Shown piece by piece: positions 25,910-51,169 of a stretch of 64,000 nucleotides of DNA (position 1 is its first letter; every line of letters begins with the position of its first letter). Source of the stretch: Sacculina carcini (Eukaryota > Arthropoda > Thecostraca > Sacculinidae). The notes under the pieces are model-generated. The model saw only the letters and a program-made list of their open reading frames with translations, was not told the origin of the DNA and did no database searches. The DNA is taken from the NCBI GenBank assembly GCA_916048095.2, contig OU696577.1:4372001-4436000 (forward strand). Reading direction: 5' to 3'. The position numbers and the translations under genes are program-made.

Positions 25910-26365
25910 TTACTTGAATTGCCTCAAATTGGCCTTGAATTTCGTCAAATTGTTCTGCGAGAAAGCCTCCTCCTTCAACGTGTTCCAAGTAGACACAGTG
26001 GCCGGAAGAAAGCAACGTTGGAATTGTTTTGTACGACAACGAATTGGAGCCATGCACTGGGAATGCTGTTTGGATGTAAACCGTGTGCTTCTTGCTGCCA
26101 CGAAATCATCAGGAATTGACTTGCTCATCGGATGATTGTCGTTGTGCTTGATCTTGTACAGCATGCACACGCTGCTGACTTTTCGGCGATGGCAAAAATC
26201 ACCAAGAACCAAGTCACCACAGAGGAACTTGCAAGTTCTAACAACTCTGTTGATGAGATTGAGGTGACAATCCGCAGCAGAAGACCACACGGGGGCGCAG
26301 TACTCGAGTATTGGCAAAATGAAACAGCGAAAACAACTTTTTGAGATTGTGCTGCTACCGAACAT
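25910..26365 (-). pseudogene. 2A-LINE RT C-terminal region
   Basis: An open frame of 151 codons (FRCFILPILEYCAPVW, LCGDLVLGDFCHRRKVSSV, TVSTWNTLKEEAFSQNNL) nearly identical to the end of the RT at 43279-44163. It lacks the catalytic palm. Confidence 0.85.
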
Positions 26366-26496
26366 CCGATATGCTTTTCTTATAATTCCCAGTTTCCGCG
26401 ATGCCGAACAAACTAGCTAAATTAGAATGTGACTCTCAAACGTCTGGACAGTGGACAGTCTGGAAGATATCAAGTGCTCGAATATTTTGGATAAAT

Positions 26497-27904
26497 TTTA
26501 TATATTTATTTTTTAATTTTTTTATTTTAAATTTAATATTTTGGACAAATAGTGCCGCATGGCTGCCGATATGGGCGCATCGCTCAGTCATCAGCTGGGT
26601 GATGTGGCTGATATTGTCGAGCGCTGGACAAATGGCTTCCTTGACAATGGGTGCCCCCAACAGTGTTAGCTTATCCAATGGGGTGTACCGGGCAAATCTG
26701 AAGAAGGAATCTGTTGCTTCTGAAAGTTGTTCAGCGATGGTGTTGATCCCTGAGTGAAGACCTCCAACTGTGTTCAGGTGTGTCACTTCGCTCTTGCTCA
26801 TATTCACCTCCAAACCGATACTCTCAAGAGCTATGGTGGCCCGATGAATGTCGCTAATGACTACATCAATAGGACCTGCGATGGTGGCATCATCCAAGAA
26901 CCACACATTCATCGGCGATTGCATCGATTGGGCGATCGGGTCTACCGCCAAGGCGAACCAGAGCGGACCCATGGAGTTACCTTGTTGCACTCCTCTGCAA
27001 GACCACAGGCGCATAGTACCGAGGAAAAGCGGAGATGACTGAGAGTAGGCTTGTCGAAGGATGGAAGAGCTGCCGGGAAGCGTTGGCTAACAGCATTAAA
27101 AACTGCCCGTCGATGTACACTATTGAATGAGTTTTTCAAATCGAGCTTGCAGGTGACGTTAGTACCTCTCGTTGACCGTTCAGTAAATTGCCGGACCGCA
27201 TTCACTGCTGCCTCGCAGCCGAGGGGCGTTCCAACACCGAGCTGCACCGGCCGAAATTTTGGAGCTATGGCGGCTGTCATCCGACCGGCGACTAGCTTAT
27301 TAGCAAGTCTCCGATAGGTACATCCAATGGCAATAGGTCGCAAGCCTCCATCCTTTGTCTTCACGGTTACCAACCGAACACAGAAGAATGCGTTTTTGAC
27401 CATGTCCGAGACGGAGCCGTATAGAACGCAGTTCATCAGCTTTGTCAAGCTGGAGCAAAAACGACGACCATCTTCAGCCACACCTTTTCCGGTGAGCTGA
27501 CGCAGATGCATAGGTCAGATGCCGTCAATGCCAGCCGAAGAGCTGGGATTAAAACTTCGAAGGACAGGCTCCATCTCGTCCTCACTCACTGACAGCTCCG
27601 GTGCAAGTGATACATCCGTGCTGAGATCTTCACTGGCTGGTGCTGGCGGATGTTTTAGCTGCATAGCGGCGTAAACTTCATCACACGGCGTGGCCATAGT
27701 TTCATCCGACGAGAGTAGCCGGAGTGCACCTTTGAAATCGCCATCCGCACATTTACTACGCACACGTCGACCCAGTACTGCATTTGTGTCGGTTTTCTTA
27801 GACCGGCTTGTGCCAACTACCTTAGATCCAGAGCTCTTGCTTCTAGCCAGTGGTCCCGTATAGGCGTATGAAAGTAACCGCCACCATGCAACCACTGAGC
27901 GACT
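26497..27904 (-). pseudogene. NR-LINE reverse transcriptase
   Basis: Continuous in frame with the zinc-finger ORF: after TAA 27905-27907 the same frame runs to TGA 27515-27517, then on to about 27010. A frameshift there leads into the palm. Motifs: EPVLRSFNPSSSAGIDGI (start of RT), GGLRPIAIGCTYRRL, LGVGTPLGCEAAVNAVR, CKLDLKNSFNSVHR (motif A), GVQQGNSMGPLWFALAV (motif B), VWFLDDATIAG (motif C), LTLLGAPIV. C-terminal sequence after about 26560 is replaced by repeat-derived sequence. Two stops and one frameshift. Confidence 0.82.
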
Positions 27905-28588
27905 TTACAGTGCATCGTTGATAAGGCTACTGAGGTCCAGTGCGATTTGGTGACGTAAGCGTTTTGGTTCGTGCTGGGCGACAATGTGTTCAGACCGAAG
28001 CGTCGCTAGTGCGTCTGCCAAGTCGGTCGGTGGAGCAGCTGTCTCGGTGAAATGACCGACAGCGTCATCAAATCCTGTCGAATCAAGACAGGTCCGGCAG
28101 TGCCAAGTTCGCAGCACATCAACATGGGCCCGTTTTAAGCCAGCGCACGTGAGATGGTACACACGTTGGCAGTAGTTGCAAGTAACTAACCTCTTAAGGC
28201 TATTTACTGTTATACAAGAGGAGCAGGGTATGTGTGCAGCATCAATCCGTTGTGCGCCCTCTTGTTGGTGGCCGTGGTTTTGGCTGTCAGTAGGGCGCTG
28301 ATTGGGCTCATTAGGGTTAATCTTCATTCCGGCAGCGCCACACCGCATCAGACGGCACGGAGCGCATGATCGCACTGTAGGCGTGAGTATGCAACCTCCT
28401 CCTGTGCTGCATGTCGAGAGGGTGCTGTCGTCCAAATGGTGGCGTTGATAAAACACATTACATGCTCTACAGGCCACGGCTCCGTACTTCGACTGACAAG
28501 GACCCGGGTCTCTGCATATTGTGCAGGCTGACATCCGTACAGTTATGGCCAAATACCGAAGATCCGAAATATATTCACAAAAAATCAA
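27905..28588 (-). CDS. NR-LINE N-terminus: nuclear-receptor C4 domain plus PHD finger
   Basis: 227 codons. Residues 22-88 match a nuclear-receptor DNA-binding domain. Finger 1 is C22-x2-C25-x14-C40-x2-C43, with KYGAVACRACNVFYQR at the recognition helix. Finger 2 is C60-x5-C66-x8-C75-x2-C78 and ends RSCAPCRLMRCGAAGM. Family spacing is C-x2-C-x13-C-x2-C, then C-x5-C-x9-C-x2-C, so each finger differs by about one residue. Residues 122-167 form a PHD finger: C122, C125, C137, C140, H145, C148, C164, C167. After a Q/N-rich linker the ORF continues, through one TAA, into RT. I infer that the fingers bind target DNA or chromatin. The start could instead be Met19. Confidence 0.85.
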   Translation of the reverse strand: MIFCEYISDLRYLAITVRMSACTICRDPGPCQSKYGAVACRACNVFYQRHHLDDSTLSTCSTGGGCILTPTVRSCAPCRLMRCGAAGMKINPNEPNQRPTDSQNHGHQQEGAQRIDAAHIPCSSCITVNSLKRLVTCNYCQRVYHLTCAGLKRAHVDVLRTWHCRTCLDSTGFDDAVGHFTETAAPPTDLADALATLRSEHIVAQHEPKRLRHQIALDLSSLINDAL

Positions 28589-28639
28589 TGAGTATGTATT
28601 AGATTAGTGCTGGATATTGTGTATGAATGATTATTTTGT

Positions 28640-28840
28640 ATCAGCGTGAGTGAAGGTGCTGTATGTGTATATGAGCGTGCGTTTGAATGGTGGATTGTCC
28701 GGTTTGCTGACTGCGCGTGCCAAGTGGTGGCGTTATGTTTCGGTAGTCGTTGTGTGAGTGTCGTGGAGTGTGTGTCGGTGTGCGGTGTCTTGTGGGCGCG
28801 CGTGGGGCTGCAATGCCCCCGCGCGCCCGTCTTCTAATAC
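28640..28840 (+). other. GC/TG-rich leader with hairpin, candidate Gypsy-2 5' LTR end
   Basis: Contains a strong hairpin (arms about 28796-28808 and 28815-28826, GCGCGTGGGGC against GCCCCCGCGCG). It shares an ordered set of motifs with 560-760. No primer site is recognisable before gag. Confidence 0.3.
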
Positions 28841-29834: not shown

Positions 29835-32071
29835 TTAAAAACAGACTTTGCGAAGTGCAGAACGACTGACATTAAGGATGTCTATACCTGGCTGCATATT
29901 CACTAGCTTGTTGTAGTATAGAGGCAAGCGAGCGTGCCATATTCTACCAGTGACCACGGTGCGCGTTGGTGGTATATGCAGGGGGTCCCGGGGGCGCACA
30001 CCTGGTCTTGGTACTCTCCATCCGACTCGTGACAGCAGCTGCGGAGAGTCGAGTCTGTTTTTCATTAAAGAATAAAGAAACGCGACGTCGAGCCATCGCC
30101 TGCGAATGTCAAGTGGTTGGAGGCCGTACATTGAGTGGAGTTCGGTGTGATTCATCTCGGTTCGATTGGCCTGCAGGTACTTGAGTGTGCGGAGGAATCT
30201 GTTCTGTATCAGCTGCAGCCTCTGTGTGTGCGTTGGTGCTGCGCCTGCCCAAATCACACTGGCGTACTCGATGGTCGACCGCACATTCGAACAATAGGCG
30301 GCAATCAGGCTTCGTGAGTCGAAGTTCCGTGGTAGACCTTGCATGCATCTGGTGAGCACACCAAGTGAGCGATTGGCTCTGCGAGCGACGTCATCAATGT
30401 GTTGTGCAAAGGTGAGCTTGGAGTCAATGACGACCCCCAGGTCACGTGTAGTGGTCACCTTTTGCACTGTGTCGCAGCCTATCGTGTAGGTGAACTCAAC
30501 TGGCTTCTTTTTCAGCGTGATACACAAGTGTGAGCATTTCGCAGGGTTCAGTTTGAGACCCCACTTTTCACACCACTCACACAGAGTGTTGAGCTGCTCT
30601 TGCAGACTCTCACAGTCGTTGCTCGCCTTGACCGTCCGGAAAAGCTTTACGTCATCTGCGTATAGTAGTGCTGAGGTGCCCAATTTCTCAGCCAAATCGT
30701 TCACGTAGATGATGAAGAGGAGGGGGCTTAGAACAGACCCCTCCGGCACTCCGCTGGTTACCTGCGACCACGGTGATGACACTCCGTTCACCAGCACTCG
30801 TTGCCGGCGTCCCGTGAGATAAGATCTCAGTAAATCATGTAGCGAGCCTTTGACTGGCTTCTTTTTCAGCGTGATACACAAGTGTGAGCATTTTGCAGGG
30901 TTCAGTTTGAGACCCCACTTTTCACACCACTCACACAGAGTGTTGAGCTGCTCTTGCAGACTTTCACAGTCGTTGCTCGCCTTGACCGTCCGGAAAAGCT
31001 TTACGTCATCTGCGTATAGTAGTGCTGAGGTGCCCAATTTCTCAGCCAAATCGTTCACGTAGATGATGAAGAGGAGGGGGCTTAGAACAGACCCCTCCGG
31101 CACTCCGCTGGTTACCTGCGACCACGGTGATGACACTCCGTTCACCAGCACTCGTTGCCGGCGTCCCGTGAGATAAGATCTCAGTAAATCATGTAGCGAG
31201 CCTTTGACGTCATACGCTTCGGATAGCTTGTGGAGCAGCATACGATGGTCAACACTCTGGAATGCCGACTAGAAGTCCGTGTATAGAACGTCCAGCTGAG
31301 TTTTCGCGTCGATTGAGTCTCCGGCAAAGCTCACCAACGCGGCCAGATTGGTGACACAAGAACGCCCTGGGCAGAAACCATGCTGGTTCTTCGAAATCGC
31401 TGGCAGAACATGACTCGCTGGCAGAACAGACGCGCCTTTACAATCTCCTCAAGTACTTTGGCAAACACAGGCAACAGGCTTATGGAGCGATAGTTAGTTG
31501 CCTGCTTGCGGTCACCCTTCTTTGGAACGGGGATTACATTCGCGTCCTTCCAAGTGCTAGGGAAAACGCCAGTGTTGAGGCAGATTTGGAAAATCTTGCT
31601 CAATGGGACAGCGAACTCTGCTGCACACTCTCGCACAATGCGACCACTGATGTCATCAGAACCGCACGCTTTGTAAGCACTCACTTCCTGAAGACGCTGC
31701 TTCACCTCCTCCTCCGATGTTTCTATGTGATGCAGCGTATCTTCGCTGAAGTTGGAGATGCTTGGCAGTGTTCCTGTGCTGCGCTCAGTGAATTTGTCAG
31801 CGAAACATTTGTTTAGGAGTTTTGCTTTTTCCAGGTCACAGTCTGCCGTTTCATCCTTGTAAACAATGTCAGGAATCGAACTGCTGCCCACACTTTTACT
31901 CACTGTGCGGATGAAAGAATACATTCTTTTAGGGTTGTCTCGGAAGCAGTTAACCATTTTAATCAAGTGGTTTTTATATTTCTCCGCCATTAGATTTTTC
32001 AACTCGTTATCGTTAATGGTATCAAACAGCGTGTTCTTGTCGACACAGGTTGTAGCAGGAGTATTGCTCAT
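29835..32071 (-). pseudogene. D-LINE reverse transcriptase with tandem duplication
   Basis: 31331-32071 carries the RT start (STWKDANVIPVPKKGD, TNYRSISLLPVFAKVLEE). A short damaged region follows with motif A (DF*SAFQSVDHRMLL, one stop). The 468-codon frame 29835-31241 then has motif B and C twice: GVPEGSVLSPLLF and LLYADDVKLF, 118 codons apart. It is followed by a normal thumb (RDLGVVIDSKLTFAQHI) and C-terminus. A Glu replaces Gln in GVPQG in both units. The duplicated protein cannot fold as one normal palm. Confidence 0.85.
30499..31206. repeat. 354-bp in-frame tandem duplication in D-LINE RT
   Basis: Copy 1 is 30499-30852 and copy 2 is 30853-31206, 118 codons each. I see only about two base differences between them (for example CATTTCGCAG against CATTTTGCAG), so the duplication is recent. 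Confidence 0.9.
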
Positions 32072-43278: not shown

Positions 43279-46200
43279 TCAATTCCGCTCTTTCAGTAGC
43301 ATTTCATTTACTTTGGCCTTGAATTTCTTCAAATTGTTCTGCGAGAAAGCCTCCTCCTTCAACGTGTTCCAAGTAGACACAGTGGCCGGAAGAAAGCAAC
43401 GTTGGAATTGGTTTGTACGACAACGAATTTGAGCCATGCACTGGGAATGCTGTTTGGATGTAAACCGTGTGCTTCTTGCTGCCACGAAATCATCAGGAAT
43501 TGACTTGCTCATCGGATGATGGTCGTTGTGTTTGATCTTGTACAGCATGCACACGCTGCTGACCTTTCGACGATGGCAAAGATCACCAAGAAACAAGTCA
43601 CCACAGAGGAACTTGCAAGTTCTAACAACTCTGTTGATGAGATTGAGGTGACAATCCGCAGCAGAAGACCACACGGGGGCGCAGTACTCTCGAATTGGCA
43701 AAATGAAACAGCGAAAACAACTTTTTGAGATTGTGCTGCTACCGAACATCCGATATGCCTTTCTTATAATTCCCAGTTTCCGCGATGCCGAACAAACCAG
43801 CTTCCGAATGCGACTCTCAAACGTCAGCTTTGAGTCTACATGTACTCCCAATATTTTGAGCTCATCACACACGCTGAGTTGGGCGTCATTTATGAGGATA
43901 GCTCCATGTGAAGGCTGAACGGTACGTGACCTAGAAACCAACAAACATTTAGATTTCGAAGTGTTCAGCATCATATTCCACCTCTCACACCACTTCAGGA
44001 CGCTGCTGAGATCGTCGTTGACCGTTTGACGCACCTGTGGTCTGTCCGAAGGAGATGAAATTACAGCCATCGAGGTGATATCATCAGCATATCCATATAC
44101 AGGGTTGCGTGTGGTTGTGTACAGGTCAGCGGTGTAAATGTTGAACAAAATAGGACCCAACACATTTCACTGCGGGACACCGGACACAATGCTCTGCCAG
44201 CCACTGTATGCTCCATCGATGGCAACACGTTGTACGCGATTGGAGAGAAACTGATGCAAAACACTTAGCAAACGGCCGCCGACTCCAATGTTTCTCAGTT
44301 TTTGCAACAAGCCCTGGTGGATCACACGGTCAAATGCTGCCGAGAAATCCAACTGCACAATCCAGGCTTCACTGCCTTTGTCTAGCACTTGCTGGAGCTC
44401 ATGCGTGATAGTAAGCAGAGCGTCAGTCGTGCTGAGTTTTTTGCGGTGTGCAAATTGGTTTTCCGACAGCAGATTGTTGCTCTCCAGGTACTTGGACAGT
44501 CTGGAAGATATCAAGTGCTCGAATATTTTGGACAGAATCGGCGTAATTGATTGATATTGAGTTTAAGAAAGAATTAAGTATTAAGTATTGAGAAAGCGGC
44601 GATATTGGCCGGTGGTTTGCAACATCAGCTGAATTGGTTCCTTTTGGTATGGGCGTGATATTCGCAACCCGCCAACATGATGGGAACGAACCAGTCTTCA
44701 TCAAGCGCCTGAAAAGAGCACTGAGCTTCGGAGCTAGAGTATCTGCCGTGTTCTTGAAAAATAGCGGAAACATATTCAGAGGGTCTGTTCCTCCGTGGGC
44801 ATCAAGGTCTTTCATGAGATTCGCCACTTCTTTTGATCGGAAGGCAATGCCTTTGATATTCGGGGCGAGGACAGATAAATCGTCAGACGGAATGGACCCT
44901 TGACATTGCTTGGTATTGAAGTAATCCATAAGCAACTCTGCCTTCTCTGTTGGGTTTCTTTTGAGCTCACCGGTCGCTGAAAATAAAGTAGGGACAGACA
45001 GGTCATGTCCAAACACTGACGATTTCAACGTTGACCACCATTTGTGGGCGTCATTGGCAGATGTTAGCTTTTCAGCAAGTTTCTTTGAGTGACGTGTTTC
45101 CGCTTCTGAATACACATGCTCAGCTTGCCGTCTGGCCTCAGTGTAGACATTCCATGAATCGGCTGAGCGTGATTGGAGCCACTTGTGGTAAGCCTCTTGC
45201 TTGGATTCACGTGCGCTGCGACATTCGTCGGTGAACCAGGCTTTTTCATCAGAGCGAAAACGTAGTTTTTTAGTAGGCACTCTCCTTGAGATGACATCGG
45301 TAATGTATTTGTTCAATGCATCGATGGGGCATTCCTTCTGCTGCAGATTTGAAACTTTAATTGCTTTCAATTCATCATTCACCTTCACCCAGTCAACATT
45401 GTTCTTCATGTGCACGAGCCTTGAAATCGTGTAAGGAGAAACCTTCTGTCTCAATGTCAACTTCACGGACAGCGACGAGTGATCTGAACTTCCTATTGGA
45501 GCTTCCACGTTTACACTCACGATATATGAGACGTCTGTCATAACCAAGTCCAAACAGTTTCCCGCTTGATGTGTGGGACCGGACACCATTTGGGAGCAGC
45601 CAGAAATGTTGCAGAAATCATATGCTGCTTTACCATGAGCGTCTGTAGGAGATGTCGACAAGAGCCACTCACGGTGATGGGCGTTCATGTCTCCTACAAA
45701 TACAAATGCTGACTTGGTGTCCTTCTCCTGAATTGTTGACATGGCTGACAATAGACATTCGTAGATAGAGTCCATACTGTCTGGATTTTGGTAGGCTCCA
45801 AAGATGTAAAAATTCATCAAGGCGGTGTTGACACGCAGCAGCATAACTTCATGACAAGTGCAGTCGTGCGCTGTAATTCTCGTTGCTGAAAAGCCTTTGC
45901 GTACGTACACTGCCATGTCACGCCACCTGTTTTTTGAGTCACGTTTGATTAGCAATGGCTTACTGAAACCTGGCATCAAGAGCTCAGATTGGTCCCGATA
46001 ATCGGACACAAGCGTTTCGGCACAGATAACGATGTCCTTGGAGCGACTGGCTGCTGTCAAATCTCTGATGTTCTTATACAAGCCCCTGATGTTGGCGAAA
46101 AGTATATTTGAAAATCGTTTTTGTGGTCGAGCAGGACCGGGATTCATTTCAACATCACCACACATCATCAGCAGAAACGACAAATCCACGGTGTGAGAAG

Positions 46201-47045: not shown

Positions 47046-47214
47046 ACTCTCCCAGCGACAGTTGTGGTGTATGGTTGCTTTCGCGCGCTGCTCAAATTTA
47101 TGATTCTGTAGTTCTTTCTTACCTGATACTTCTTGTCGCTGGGTGAGTATTCAGTTTGTTTTTTAATTGTTTGGAATTGTTTGGTTGTTTCTCACCTGAA
47201 TCTCACGTTGCGCA

Positions 47215-48256
47215 ATGTGTCAATGCTGTATTTGTAAATCTCCCGGTGAGACTTCCAAATGGGTTGGATGCAACTTATGTGATTCGCGGGCCCACGTCAA
47301 ATGTGCCTCTCTAACTGGTATCAGGACGGACCTACTGAAAATGGTCAATTGGGTGTGTTCTCCCTGTCTTGGTCGAGCTAAGTTCGCGATCCAGTTGGCT
47401 GGAGATTTCTCTTCGTTTGGCCAGCGCCTGCAGACCATTGAGGGCACTCTAAATGAACTACGTCAGCCACCACAGGATTCCTCTACCACTCCACGACCGT
47501 CTCCTCAACCGAAACAGTCACATGCTGTGGTTTTAAAGTCGAAGACTAGCTCGCCCATTTCGACATCGTCTGTTGCTCCGGCTCTGCGCGATATTCCGGT
47601 GTGCCTCGCGCCCTGCTGTCAATGGCGGACTGGTGCTGCGCTGCGATTCCGCCGCTACAGCCAAAAAGGCTGCCGATCGTGTTCGCATGGCCATGCCGGA
47701 CGCTGAAGTCTCACTGCCGACTGTCACGCAGCTTCGCCCGAAGATTACTATGGCTAACATTCCTCCCAACTTTTCTTCTGATTCTTTCGTTTCTTCACTA
47801 AAGCAAAAAAATTACTGTCTGTCATCTGTGCCTGACTCGGAGATCAAACTTTTATTTTTCACCACTCCTCGTAATAATATATCACATGCTGTTTTGTCTG
47901 TTTCACCAGCTGTGCGTTCAGTCATCAAAAATGCCGGTGACCGTCTCTTCATCGAACTGCGTTCATGTCCAGTTTACGATCGTTACTGGGTAGCTCACTG
48001 TGGTCGATGTGCTGGTCTCGGCCACAAAGAAACACACTGCACACGTCCGGTGATGTGTGGTCATTGTGCAGGCCCTCATAGGTCTGGTGACTGTGACCGC
48101 TCAGCACCTGAATGGTGCAACAATTGTGCTTCGTCTTTGCGTCCACATAACCATTCATCTTTCAGCTCTTCCTGTCCTTCTTTCTTGGCTGTAAGAAATT
48201 ATATCCGGCTCCGCACTATGTCCTCCGGTCCGTCCGTCTCTCCTTCTTCCACCTGA
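47215..48256 (+). pseudogene. L2-LINE a ORF1: PHD finger and CCHC knuckles
   Basis: Residues 3-53 form a PHD-type finger (CCICKSPGETSKWVGCNLC, AHVKC, WVCSPC). A Ser/Pro-rich linker follows. A frameshift near 47640 leads to the second half, with a gag-like fold (VTQLRPKITMANIP, LKQKNYCLS) and knuckles CGRCAGLGHKETHC and CGHCAGPHRSGDC, then CNNC. PHD or esterase domains in ORF1 are known in CR1/L2-type LINEs. Confidence 0.82.
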
Positions 48257-48304
48257 CTAGCCTCCCAAGCATCCTCTCCTAAGCATTCCTCTAATCGCTC
48301 TTCC

Positions 48305-51169
48305 TTGTCTAGTTCCTCTCTTTGGTCTAATATTCCTATTGGATTTATTAACATTCGTTCCTGTCGCAATAAAACTACTCATCTCTGCCATATCCTATCC
48401 CTCCACTCTCTCGCAATTTTGTGTCTTGTTGAAACCTGGCTCTTTGACTCCGACATTCCTTCTTTCTCCTCTAACATTCCCACAGGTTACTCCTTCCTAC
48501 ATAAATCTAGGTCAAATACCAAGTCTTCCGGTGGTGGAGTGGGCTGCATTTTCTCTAAATCTCTACATGTTTCAGTCTTATCTTTTCCGTCTCTTTGTTC
48601 TTTCTCATCCTTTGAATTCCTTGCTCTACAACTTTCACCGCCTTCTCCTCCGAAGTTCTGTATCACCATTATTTATCGCCATAATCATCCTGGCACTTGC
48701 TCTTCTTTTTTCACTGAATTTCCTACTCTCCTCGACTGCATCATATCCTCTTTCTCTAGTCGCTTTATTATCCTAGGCGATTTCAACTTTTGGGTGGATT
48801 CGCCTAGCTCTAATGTCCTTGCTTCTCGATTTCTAACTATCTTAGACTCTCATGGTTTGTTCTCTCCTGTTTCCTCGCCTACTCATATATCCGGTCATTC
48901 CTTAGATCTTATCCTTTTCCCATCGCCTGTCCTTACTACCGACAATTCCCCCTCCAATGTAACTGTCTTTCCTTCCGATCTTTCTTTGTCTGACCATAGT
49001 CTTCTTCTTACCACTCTTCCTTGTCTCGCCTCGCTGCCTCCTCATACTCCTGCTTTGATTGCCTATCGTAACTTTAAAGAATTCGATCCGATGCAGTTTT
49101 ACCTATTACTTGATTCCTTATTACCTCTGCAAACGCTTTATTTCCTGAATCCTTCGGACATCTATCCCCACCTATCTTCTGCTTTATCTAAAATCAGTGA
49201 CTCTTTGTTTCCTTTACTTATCCGGCGCAATACAACTAATTCTTCTCCTCCTTGGTTTAACTCTCAACTTCGTCTATTGAAAAGACATCAACGTTCACTT
49301 CTACGAATCTGGAAACGTACATCTCATCCATCTGATTGGTCTTCCTTCTCTGTTTCCCGCTCTTCTTATATCTCGGCCTTGTCTGCAGCGAAACAAAATT
49401 ACTTCTCCTCCCGTCTCTCTTCGCTCTCCCGATCCCCTAAGTCTCTTTGGACAACTCTAAACTCTCTCACTGGTTCTCGATCTAACTCCTCTTTATCTAA
49501 TCTAACTGCCTCTCAATTATCTTCTCATTTCACTAATAAAGTCCTAACTGTTCAATCTAAACTCCCCTCTTCCAATATCCCTTTTACACATACTCGTGTG
49601 TCTCTACAATTCACTTCATTCTCGCAAATACATCTTTCAGATATTCTTACCATGATATCTTCCCTCAAAATTTCCTCCTCTCCGGCTGATCCTATTAATT
49701 TTAGAGATATCTCCCCTTCAATATTTTCTCTTGTTCCTTATATATTACATCTCATTAATTCATCATTTCTTCATGGCCAATTCCTATCTGATAAACATGC
49801 CATCGTCCATCCTATCCTTAAAAAACCTACATTAAATCCGTCTGAATGCGCTAATTACCGTCCTATATCTCTTCTCAGCTTTCCTTCAAAACTCCTTGAA
49901 TCAGCTATTTTTTCCCAGTTGTCTCCCCTTATTTCCCAGGTCCTTCATCCTTTCCAATCTGGGTTTCGCTCCTGTCACTCTACGGAATCCGTCCTTATTT
50001 CACTTACTCATTAAATCTTATCTAAATTTTCCTATCGTCAATCAGTTCTCCTTGTTCTTCTCGATATGTCTCTAGCCTTCGATCTTGTCAATCATGCCAT
50101 TCTCATCAATGATCTTTCTTCTCTGGGTCTATCCTCGTCAGCATTGTCTCTCCTCAAATCCTATCTCTCTGGTCGCACTTTTTCAGTAAACTTCAATTCA
50201 ACTGTTTCAAAATCTGCTTCTCTTATTTCTGGTGTCCCTCAAGGTTCTATCTTGGGTCCTACTCTTTTCAATCTTTACATGTCTTCTCTCTGTCCTGTCC
50301 TTTGTAAATACAACATTCCTTTCCATATTTATGCCGATGATATACAACTCCTAATTCCTTGTCCTTTCTCTCATGCCACTCTTCTCAATGATATTCTCTC
50401 TGATATTACGTCCTGGACCACCTCTCGTCGCCTCATTCTCAACACTTCTAAGTCTGAATTTCTTATCCTTCACCCTCCGCGCATTTCTCCTCCATTACTC
50501 CCAATCGCTGTATCTTCCTCTGTTCGAAACTTGGGTGCTATCTTCGATTCCAACTTGTCCTTTTCAAACAATGTTGTCTCTATTTCGCGCACCTGTCGTT
50601 TGATTTTACGCAGTCTATACCCTATTCGATCCTGTTTAGACCAGCCTTCTTCTATTAAATTAATACAGTCTCTTGTTCTTTCTCGTCTTGATTATTGCAG
50701 CTCACTCCACTACATTCTTACCAACAAATCCCTGAAAATCCTTCAAAAAATAATTAATCAATCCTGTCGTTTTGTGCTCCATCCTACACCTTGCCGCCAT
50801 ACCTCTCAATTCTTGTTCCAATTCCACTGGCTTCACATCATTCCTAGGATTCATTTTCGGCTGTGTTGTCTCATATATAAAATTATGCACAATAGCTCTT
50901 CCCCGTCCTATCTTTCTGATCTTCTAGTTTCTTCTAATGACTTTAATTCTCGTGTTCATCGTCCTTTATCCTGTCCTCGCGCTATCAACGAGTCACCTTG
51001 GTCCGCAAAATCCTTTTCTTTCTATGCGCCTCGGGTCTACAATGATCTTCCTTCCTCAATCACTTCCTCTTCATCCTTTAGTAGATTTTCCTCCTCACTT
51101 CGTAAATATCTTTTTCCTAAATCTTTTGATCCCACTTCTCGCACTCTTACACCTTACGCTTCCCTATGA
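48305..51169 (+). pseudogene. L2-LINE a ORF2: APE endonuclease and RT
   Basis: A single frame of about 955 codons with just one stop (TAA 50012-50014). Endonuclease: IGFINIRSCRNKT, LCLVETWLFDSD, FIILGDFNFWVDS, SLSDHSLLLT. RT: VHPILKKPTLNPSECANYRPISLL, HPFQSGFRSCHSTES, VLLDMSLAFDLVNHAIL, SGVPQGSILGPTLFNLYMS, FHIYADDIQLL, NLGAIFDSNLSF, and a complete C-terminus. I chose the start at 48305 by frame opening; the natural start may be an ATG slightly upstream or at 48339. Confidence 0.88.

Follow-up and report, generated by a model that had tools for sequence, protein, structure and literature searches.

A LINE family of Sacculina carcini with a nuclear-receptor-type C4 domain and mostly CA-repeat flanks

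The closest described systems are LINEs that encode a restriction-like endonuclease (RLE). In R2, as outlined in PMC12180492, contact with the target is made through the Myb domain and the N-terminal zinc finger(s), upstream of where the first nick falls; this nick is cut by the C-terminal endonuclease and serves as the priming site of the reverse transcriptase (RT). Five RLE clades are distinguished in the relevant passages of PMC4640811, which also describe microsatellite-specific HERO families, the fish element Togen specific to (TG)n, and nematode NeSL/Utopia families with a Ulp1-like protease as an extra N-terminal domain.

The family described here, found through a copy in a stretch of 64,000 nucleotides that was analysed as a whole (the window), resembles R2 in its single open reading frame (ORF) with an N-terminal zinc-binding region (that of R2 contacts DNA), a C-terminal zinc knuckle and an RLE-type motif, as well as in its RT, which is closest to R2 among solved proteins. 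It carries a nuclear-receptor-type C4 zinc-finger DNA-binding domain (DBD; zf-C4, PF00105) and a PHD finger where R2, according to the accounts in PMC12180492 and PMC5035012, has zinc finger(s) and Myb, and its flanks are mostly (CA)n, whereas R2 inserts in 28S rDNA. With Togen and HERO it shares microsatellite insertion, the (TG)n of Togen being the other strand of (CA)n, and, to judge by its motif, probably RLE coding, but the descriptions of those elements in PMC4640811 mention no receptor-type domain. Some NeSL/Utopia families are likewise RLE LINEs with an extra host-type N-terminal domain, although theirs is a different one and the targets given for them in PMC4640811 are spliced-leader exons and U2 snRNA genes. 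A microsatellite target therefore has precedents in Togen and HERO (PMC4640811); what appears new is the nuclear-receptor DBD in such a LINE. A word search of open-licence PMC found no description of a zf-C4/nuclear-receptor domain in a LINE. To our knowledge, DBDs of this type are considered the property of nuclear receptors and related proteins.

Like the DBD of nuclear receptors, the LINE domain has nine cysteines in receptor spacing together with recognition-helix and exit motifs. Unlike in nuclear receptors, it is fused to a PHD finger, an RT and an RLE-type motif, and a ligand-binding domain had zero Pfam matches at E <= 0.1 in eight full-length proteins. Its recognition-helix letters are also other than those of the EGCKG type, which is that of many receptors.

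The window copy and its domains

The window holds a broken copy of a many-copy LINE (non-LTR retrotransposon) family on the minus strand at 26543-28595, as delimited by blastn to two other loci, L031 and L032 (95.4% identity to L031 over 2054 bases, spanning 28595-26543). Its zf-C4 and PHD finger are encoded by the frame 27905-28603 (minus), within which the first ATG-to-stop reading (27905-28534, minus) comprises both domains and then a conserved stretch. The first-pass annotation, made from the letters alone, had proposed a LINE ORF opening with a nuclear-receptor-type C4 domain followed by a PHD finger, and this arrangement was found to hold in the window copy and in other copies. The nine cysteines it had named (C22, C25, C40, C43, C60, C66, C75, C78 and C83) are read as described in the frame 27905-28588 (minus), and the domain (28322-28528, minus) scored 37.1 bits (E=4.5e-9) with the Pfam profile, above and not below the cut-off of 21.1, in agreement with its assignment as a receptor-type DBD. 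In a profile search of the genome, the same domain (C9:4400322-4400528) reached 40.4 bits. When the 227-residue piece was compared with PDB sequences, nuclear-receptor DBDs headed the best 60 of 128 matches, led by NR2C2 (7xv6, 7.2e-8) and including RAR alpha (7.4e-7).

The PHD finger (28088-28225, minus) has a Pfam score of 23.7 bits (E=4.9e-5), slightly below the cut-off of 24. Its C4HC3 ligands, like the zf-C4 cysteines, are invariant in a nine-row alignment of relatives, the rows of which were chosen for having the domain. As for the frame continuity of the first-pass annotation, the frame, interrupted by one TAA and one TGA, does run on into the LINE RT, but only as far as its first half (LDLKNSFNS motif, 26942-27514); the GVQQG and FLDD motifs sit in another frame (26436-27086), so that the window copy also has a frameshift. 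The RT as a whole (26763-27358, minus) is thus split over the two frames, with RVT_1 scores of 29.7 bits in the first and 24.8 bits in the second for a cut-off of 29.6.

Decay of the window copy is seen as stops, a frameshift and the lack of both ends; it has no knuckle, RLE motif, 3' UTR or A-tail. As its 5' part, endonuclease part and 3' end are missing, the copy is presumably unable to move by itself. An A/T-rich sequence (26436-26542, minus) adjoins the broken 3' end, the L031 alignment ending at 26543, and beside this end an RT tail (25910-26416, minus) is by eye almost identical to the end of another LINE at 43279-44166 (minus). The 5' flank (28596-28795, given without strand) is AC-rich in the element sense with zero perfect (CA)5 runs, and (CA)5 was absent from the 700 nt upstream of the copy (L001); this flank is possibly a decayed target microsatellite.

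A family with one long open reading frame

When the 264 Mb genome was searched with the window protein, at least 155 matches were obtained at E <= 0.001 (150 of 270 first-look candidates scored), many of them in open frames some 1030 codons long. Some relatives have a single open frame of about 1020-1070 codons with zf-C4, PHD, RT and a C-terminal RLE-type motif, and the C-terminal piece of the protein P0002 gave at least 150 genome matches (150 of 1177 candidates scored). Twenty loci were fetched which, having been chosen for long open frames, are not representative of all copies; masked letters make the frames of L043, L045 and L050 look longer than they are, and that of L042 breaks before the C-terminus. 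The description of the family draws on single natural open-frame copies. The nine-cysteine pattern was present in 18 of the 20 loci, the misses being L032, where the first cysteine pair lies outside the frame, and L045, where letters are masked. Among six subfamily representatives grouped by sequence (L031, L033, L034, L036, L046 and L047), zf-C4 passed the Pfam cut-off in all six (27.1 to 38.0 bits), as did RVT_1, which also passed in all eight full-length proteins scanned, and PHD passed in five (L046 scored 21.2 vs. 24).

These results bear on two doubts raised with the first reading, that a single host exon had been caught by chance and that the continuous frame was peculiar to the window copy. 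Neither was borne out: other copies carry zf-C4, both among the representatives and in the genome scan, and have zf-C4 and RT in one ORF. The PF00105 profile itself gave at least 147 genome matches (150 of 213 candidates scored), many coinciding with window-protein matches. Those outside LINE places were headed by six of 98.7-115.1 bits; the three that were read (L051-L053) look like host receptor DBDs, which we take to be of HR3/ROR, FTZ-F1 and NR4A types.

The RT places the family near R2. The best solved RT matches were R2 retrotransposon proteins (2e-11 with P0002 alone, 2.4e-23 with an alignment profile), followed in the profile ranking by R2Bm and LINE-1; the profile match stops before the C-terminal knuckle/RLE part. 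In that part, CxC...GHH...C is invariant in the nine-row alignment and most rows have CxCG...GHHxLSC followed by RPDG...WDxT. Among 120 listed database relatives, the R.DG...WD.T motif was found in all 120, and 52 of them matched a strictly defined knuckle. The first-pass annotation had suggested looking for a C-terminal restriction-like nuclease, and other copies carry an RLE-type motif at the C-terminus; judged by motif and order, the C-terminus would be an R2-like PD-(D/E)XK endonuclease. The ORF order is zf-C4, PHD, a conserved linker, R2-like RT, zinc knuckle and a domain with the RLE signature, as seen in many copies and in the six representatives. C2H2/CCHH fingers and Myb had zero Pfam matches at E <= 0.1 in the eight proteins.

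Eight coding regions of one subfamily are only 0.5-2.4% apart, which suggests recent activity. A-rich tails were seen at most inspected 3' ends and the 5' ends were variable; genome-wide, 206 exact 3' ends of subfamily A were found vs. 28 exact 5' ends.

Head-to-tail pairs or small arrays were noticed at L040, where 3759 bases separate the copies and CA repeats lie in this interval, at C31:5951942-5956303 and C22:6176749-6184737, and at C23:5954705-5956119 and C23:6081797-6083211, with copies 812 bases apart at both C23 places. In addition, 12 of the at least 150 matches of the P0002 C-terminal piece (C4:3338475, C2:3991130, C1:9778225, C11:7383605, C21:2975402 and seven others) share one shape, with 91-93% identity over query residues 1-182 and an open frame that measures 221 codons, or 232 in a single case, which looks as though a C-terminal fragment had spread independently.

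Kinship and origin of the C4 domain

A group of LINE domains scores 67.6-68.5 bits with PF00105, those at C36:1812108, C7:5692387, C20:7504600, C20:7519729 and C23:5034332, places which were assigned to LINEs by their match to residues 21-226 of the window protein (zf-C4, PHD and the following stretch), that is, to the part outside the RT. Two of these five domains, L054 and L055, were read, and L054 is the most receptor-like example, matching the androgen receptor DBD with E=2.8e-13 across all 68 residues. Two database proteins, P0003 and P0012, also combine an RT with a zf-C4 above the Pfam cut-off. Since all six representatives pass, the best example aligns so closely with a receptor and these two proteins share the combination, it is nearly certain that this is a LINE family carrying a nuclear-receptor-type DBD.

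The alternative of a convergent cysteine cluster unrelated to receptors could draw on the low scores of some representatives (only 27-30 bits) and on the second finger, which is one residue shorter than that of receptors in 9 of 11 aligned LINE domains. Against this, L054, L055 and P0012 reach 56-68 bits, are near the receptor consensus along the whole domain and align throughout with the other LINE domains, making convergence very improbable. In a tree with six receptor DBDs (three from the host and three from PDB alignments), all 13 LINE zf-C4 domains fell together on one branch (100/100), the nearest to the receptors being L054/L055 and then P0012; the program warned of long branches, among them L046 with P0012. 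The pattern agrees with a single capture and subsequent divergence, as far as six receptors, a small sample, and a short domain can indicate.

Comparison of coding changes suggests that zf-C4 is kept, yet changes faster than the RT. In five close pairs (of 11), the zf-C4 had dN of 0.013-0.068, dS of 0.108-0.485 and dN/dS of 0.08-0.25, on few changes, whereas in the six distant pairs dN was 0.49-0.59 in zf-C4 vs. 0.21-0.36 in the RT, with dS mostly saturated.

In the protein database, the first 200 residues of P0002 matched two proteins among 1291 candidates, P0003 (PF00105, PF00628 and PF00078; 47% identity) and P0004, and the N-terminus of P0012 matched itself alone among 189 candidates. The RT-RLE part gave at least 773 matches (8000 candidates scored), and among the best 120, whose named hosts are crustaceans and Lepidoptera, PF00105 was found in two (P0003 and P0012), PF00628 in 20 and PF00443 in 14. 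A profile of LINE zf-C4 domains, in whose building P0003 and P0012 were included, recovered these same two from the 120. A C4HC3 PHD-like pattern was present in 46 of the 120, and none of sixteen N-termini inspected had a zf-C4 before it. When viral contigs were searched with the window protein, seven stretches matched a pattern and zero were relatives. The PHD is found in relatives that have no zf-C4 too, and so is probably the older of the two parts.

A tree of the RT-RLE part, built from 38 rows (7 of our own and 31 of the 120 relatives), places the nine zf-C4 elements within one clade of 18 (100/100), beside nine whose recorded proteins have no zf-C4. The label needs two changes on this tree, and a single clade of zf-C4 elements, as expected from one gain without loss, was rejected (p-AU 4e-49). 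That these elements do not form a single clade calls for losses, for multiple gains or for miscalled starts. We read the tree as a putative capture of zf-C4 at or near the base of the 18-element clade with later losses, two gains requiring equally few changes. Several of the records without zf-C4 may be truncated proteins or have wrongly placed starts; P0004, for example, starts inside the PHD.

The 14 relatives in which PF00443, a ubiquitin carboxyl-terminal hydrolase domain, accompanies the RT (P0016, P0021-P0023, P0025, P0031, P0032, P0034-P0036, P0057, P0063, P0071 and P0091) include two named as such hydrolases in Amphibalanus amphitrite; here the same RT-RLE core carries a further domain of host type. 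In P0053, P0039 and P0081, GDVETNPGP and variants of it stand before the PHD finger; we take this motif to be a 2A-like peptide, and relatives of this type may make two proteins from one frame.

Insertion at CA repeats and its possible reader

An all-against-all blastn of the loci was dominated by CA repeats, which revealed the repeats and fixed the orientations. At most 3' ends the element closes with a short UTR and an A-rich tail, after which comes CACACA in the element sense, and many elements start after CA repeats of the same sense. Within 200 nt past the stop, sense (CA)5 was found in 14 of 17 loci and the antisense form in 1 of 17 (L042, L045 and L050 left out), compared to a background of 2.5% in random 200-nt stretches of the window. 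The misses were L033, L034 and L048; of these, L034 has a CACAAA-type repeat after it and L033 an AC-rich sequence. Bins of 200 nt more than about 1.5 kb downstream of the same loci had sense (CA)5 in 17 of 133 and antisense in 8 of 133, so the neighbourhoods of these LINEs are themselves richer in repeats. Eleven other retroelement ORFs in the window had sense (CA)5 within 600 nt of their end in 0 of 11 cases and antisense in 2 of 11.

For subfamily A, the exact 3' UTR end occurs 101 times on the forward and 105 times on the reverse strand of the genome. AA plus (AC)5 followed within about 60 nt after 66 of the 101 forward ends (35 fail the strict pattern), a count of sense (AC)5 only, the antisense form being the subfamily A anchor followed by GTGTGTGTGT. 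Since the reverse count (454) tallies places repeatedly, reverse anchors were compared by hand, and up to C8:7416969 the pattern followed 37 of 54. Taken together, a strong insertion preference for (CA)n in one orientation is very probable.

It could be argued that the flanking (CA)n grew from the element tail after insertion, as the CA run comes directly after the A-rich tail in many copies and A-rich tails can seed microsatellites. However, sense (CA)5 also lies within 700 nt on the 5' side in 20 of the 30 best matches (antisense in 1 of 30; background 7%), where the window copy is one of the ten misses, six copies are common to the 5' and 3' sets and four of the positives come from one C22 array (L009, L011, L012 and L023). 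Moreover, 6 of 8 distinct full-length copies of subfamily A have the CA run directly against identical 5' letters, and some tracts measure at least a hundred bases (L040, L041 and L043). Growth from the tail is thus improbable, and (CA)n is preferred as the target.

The first-pass annotation had proposed that the receptor domain directs insertion to half-sites of hormone-response elements, as might be expected of a receptor-type DBD. A preferred insertion site is supported, but half-sites of this kind are not: AGGTCA, AGAACA, AGTTCA and AAGTCA were each found in 0 of 16 of the 200-nt 3' flanks covered by the count (L042, L045, L048 and L050 dropped), which are mostly (CA)n, where the window background (6.5-19%) predicts about one to three of 16. 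Half-site targeting is therefore highly unlikely. The annotation further took the PHD finger as a possible guide to marked nucleosomes.

The explanation that we favour as a whole, and regard as likely, is that of a receptor-DBD LINE whose captured domain holds the protein on (CA)n. A PHD-RT-RLE element would have captured the C4 domain from a host nuclear receptor; by analogy with R2, held on rDNA by its N-terminal zinc finger and Myb domains, zf-C4, with or without PHD, would hold the protein on (CA)n/(TG)n DNA, where the endonuclease would nick and the RT, starting at the nick, would copy the RNA by target-primed reverse transcription. It is plausible that the CA repeat is read by the DBD. 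A main role for the C4 domain in reading the insertion site is nevertheless given even odds, because its recognition-helix letters vary by subfamily (RACNV, RACNI, RACDI, RACLV, RACQA, PACRQ and PACKI, with PSCRE in the L054 type) while most of the subfamilies whose flanks were read have CA-rich flanks despite these differences. This fits weak or modest specificity, or targeting by another part.

Such another part is named by a competing explanation which has a substantial though lesser share of our belief: the LINE goes to (CA)n, but the site is picked by the RLE, the RT or the PHD, or else through pairing between the A/CA-rich end of the RNA and the target strand, and zf-C4 binds the element RNA, or DNA non-specifically, or serves dimerisation. 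It has in its favour the variable helix letters beside constant flanks and faces the purifying selection on zf-C4 in the close pairs and the fact that receptor DBDs are, as a rule, sequence-specific binders. Precedents for it are other RLE LINEs that use microsatellites, as described in sections of PMC4640811, and some vertebrate R2 zinc fingers which, in the account of PMC12180492, contact mainly DNA non-specifically, or RNA. Our preferred reading, with zf-C4 holding the protein on the repeat, may be extended to a captured receptor DBD re-tuned to (CA)n/(TG)n and a PHD choosing the chromatin state, a two-part host-derived address on an R2-like machine, but this extension is put forward tentatively, at somewhat less than even confidence.

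A receptor DBD fronting a many-copy LINE would represent traffic from host transcription factor to transposon, the reverse of the direction usually described, and the subfamilies supply naturally occurring variants of such a DBD on an R2-like machine whose target can be measured. Swapping of LINE targeting becomes testable by domain exchange, which is relevant to R2-type gene-insertion tools.

Two further elements were noticed in the window. At 47200-51169 (plus) lies a CR1-like LINE, identified by eye, whose first frame opens with a PHD-like C4HC3 cluster and is followed by a cysteine-knuckle frame and then RT frames, making it a second PHD-like LINE in the window. At 29835-31268 (minus), an RT frame has an internal repeat of about 118 residues in which the GVPEGSVLSP block occurs twice, a tandem duplication inside one ORF.
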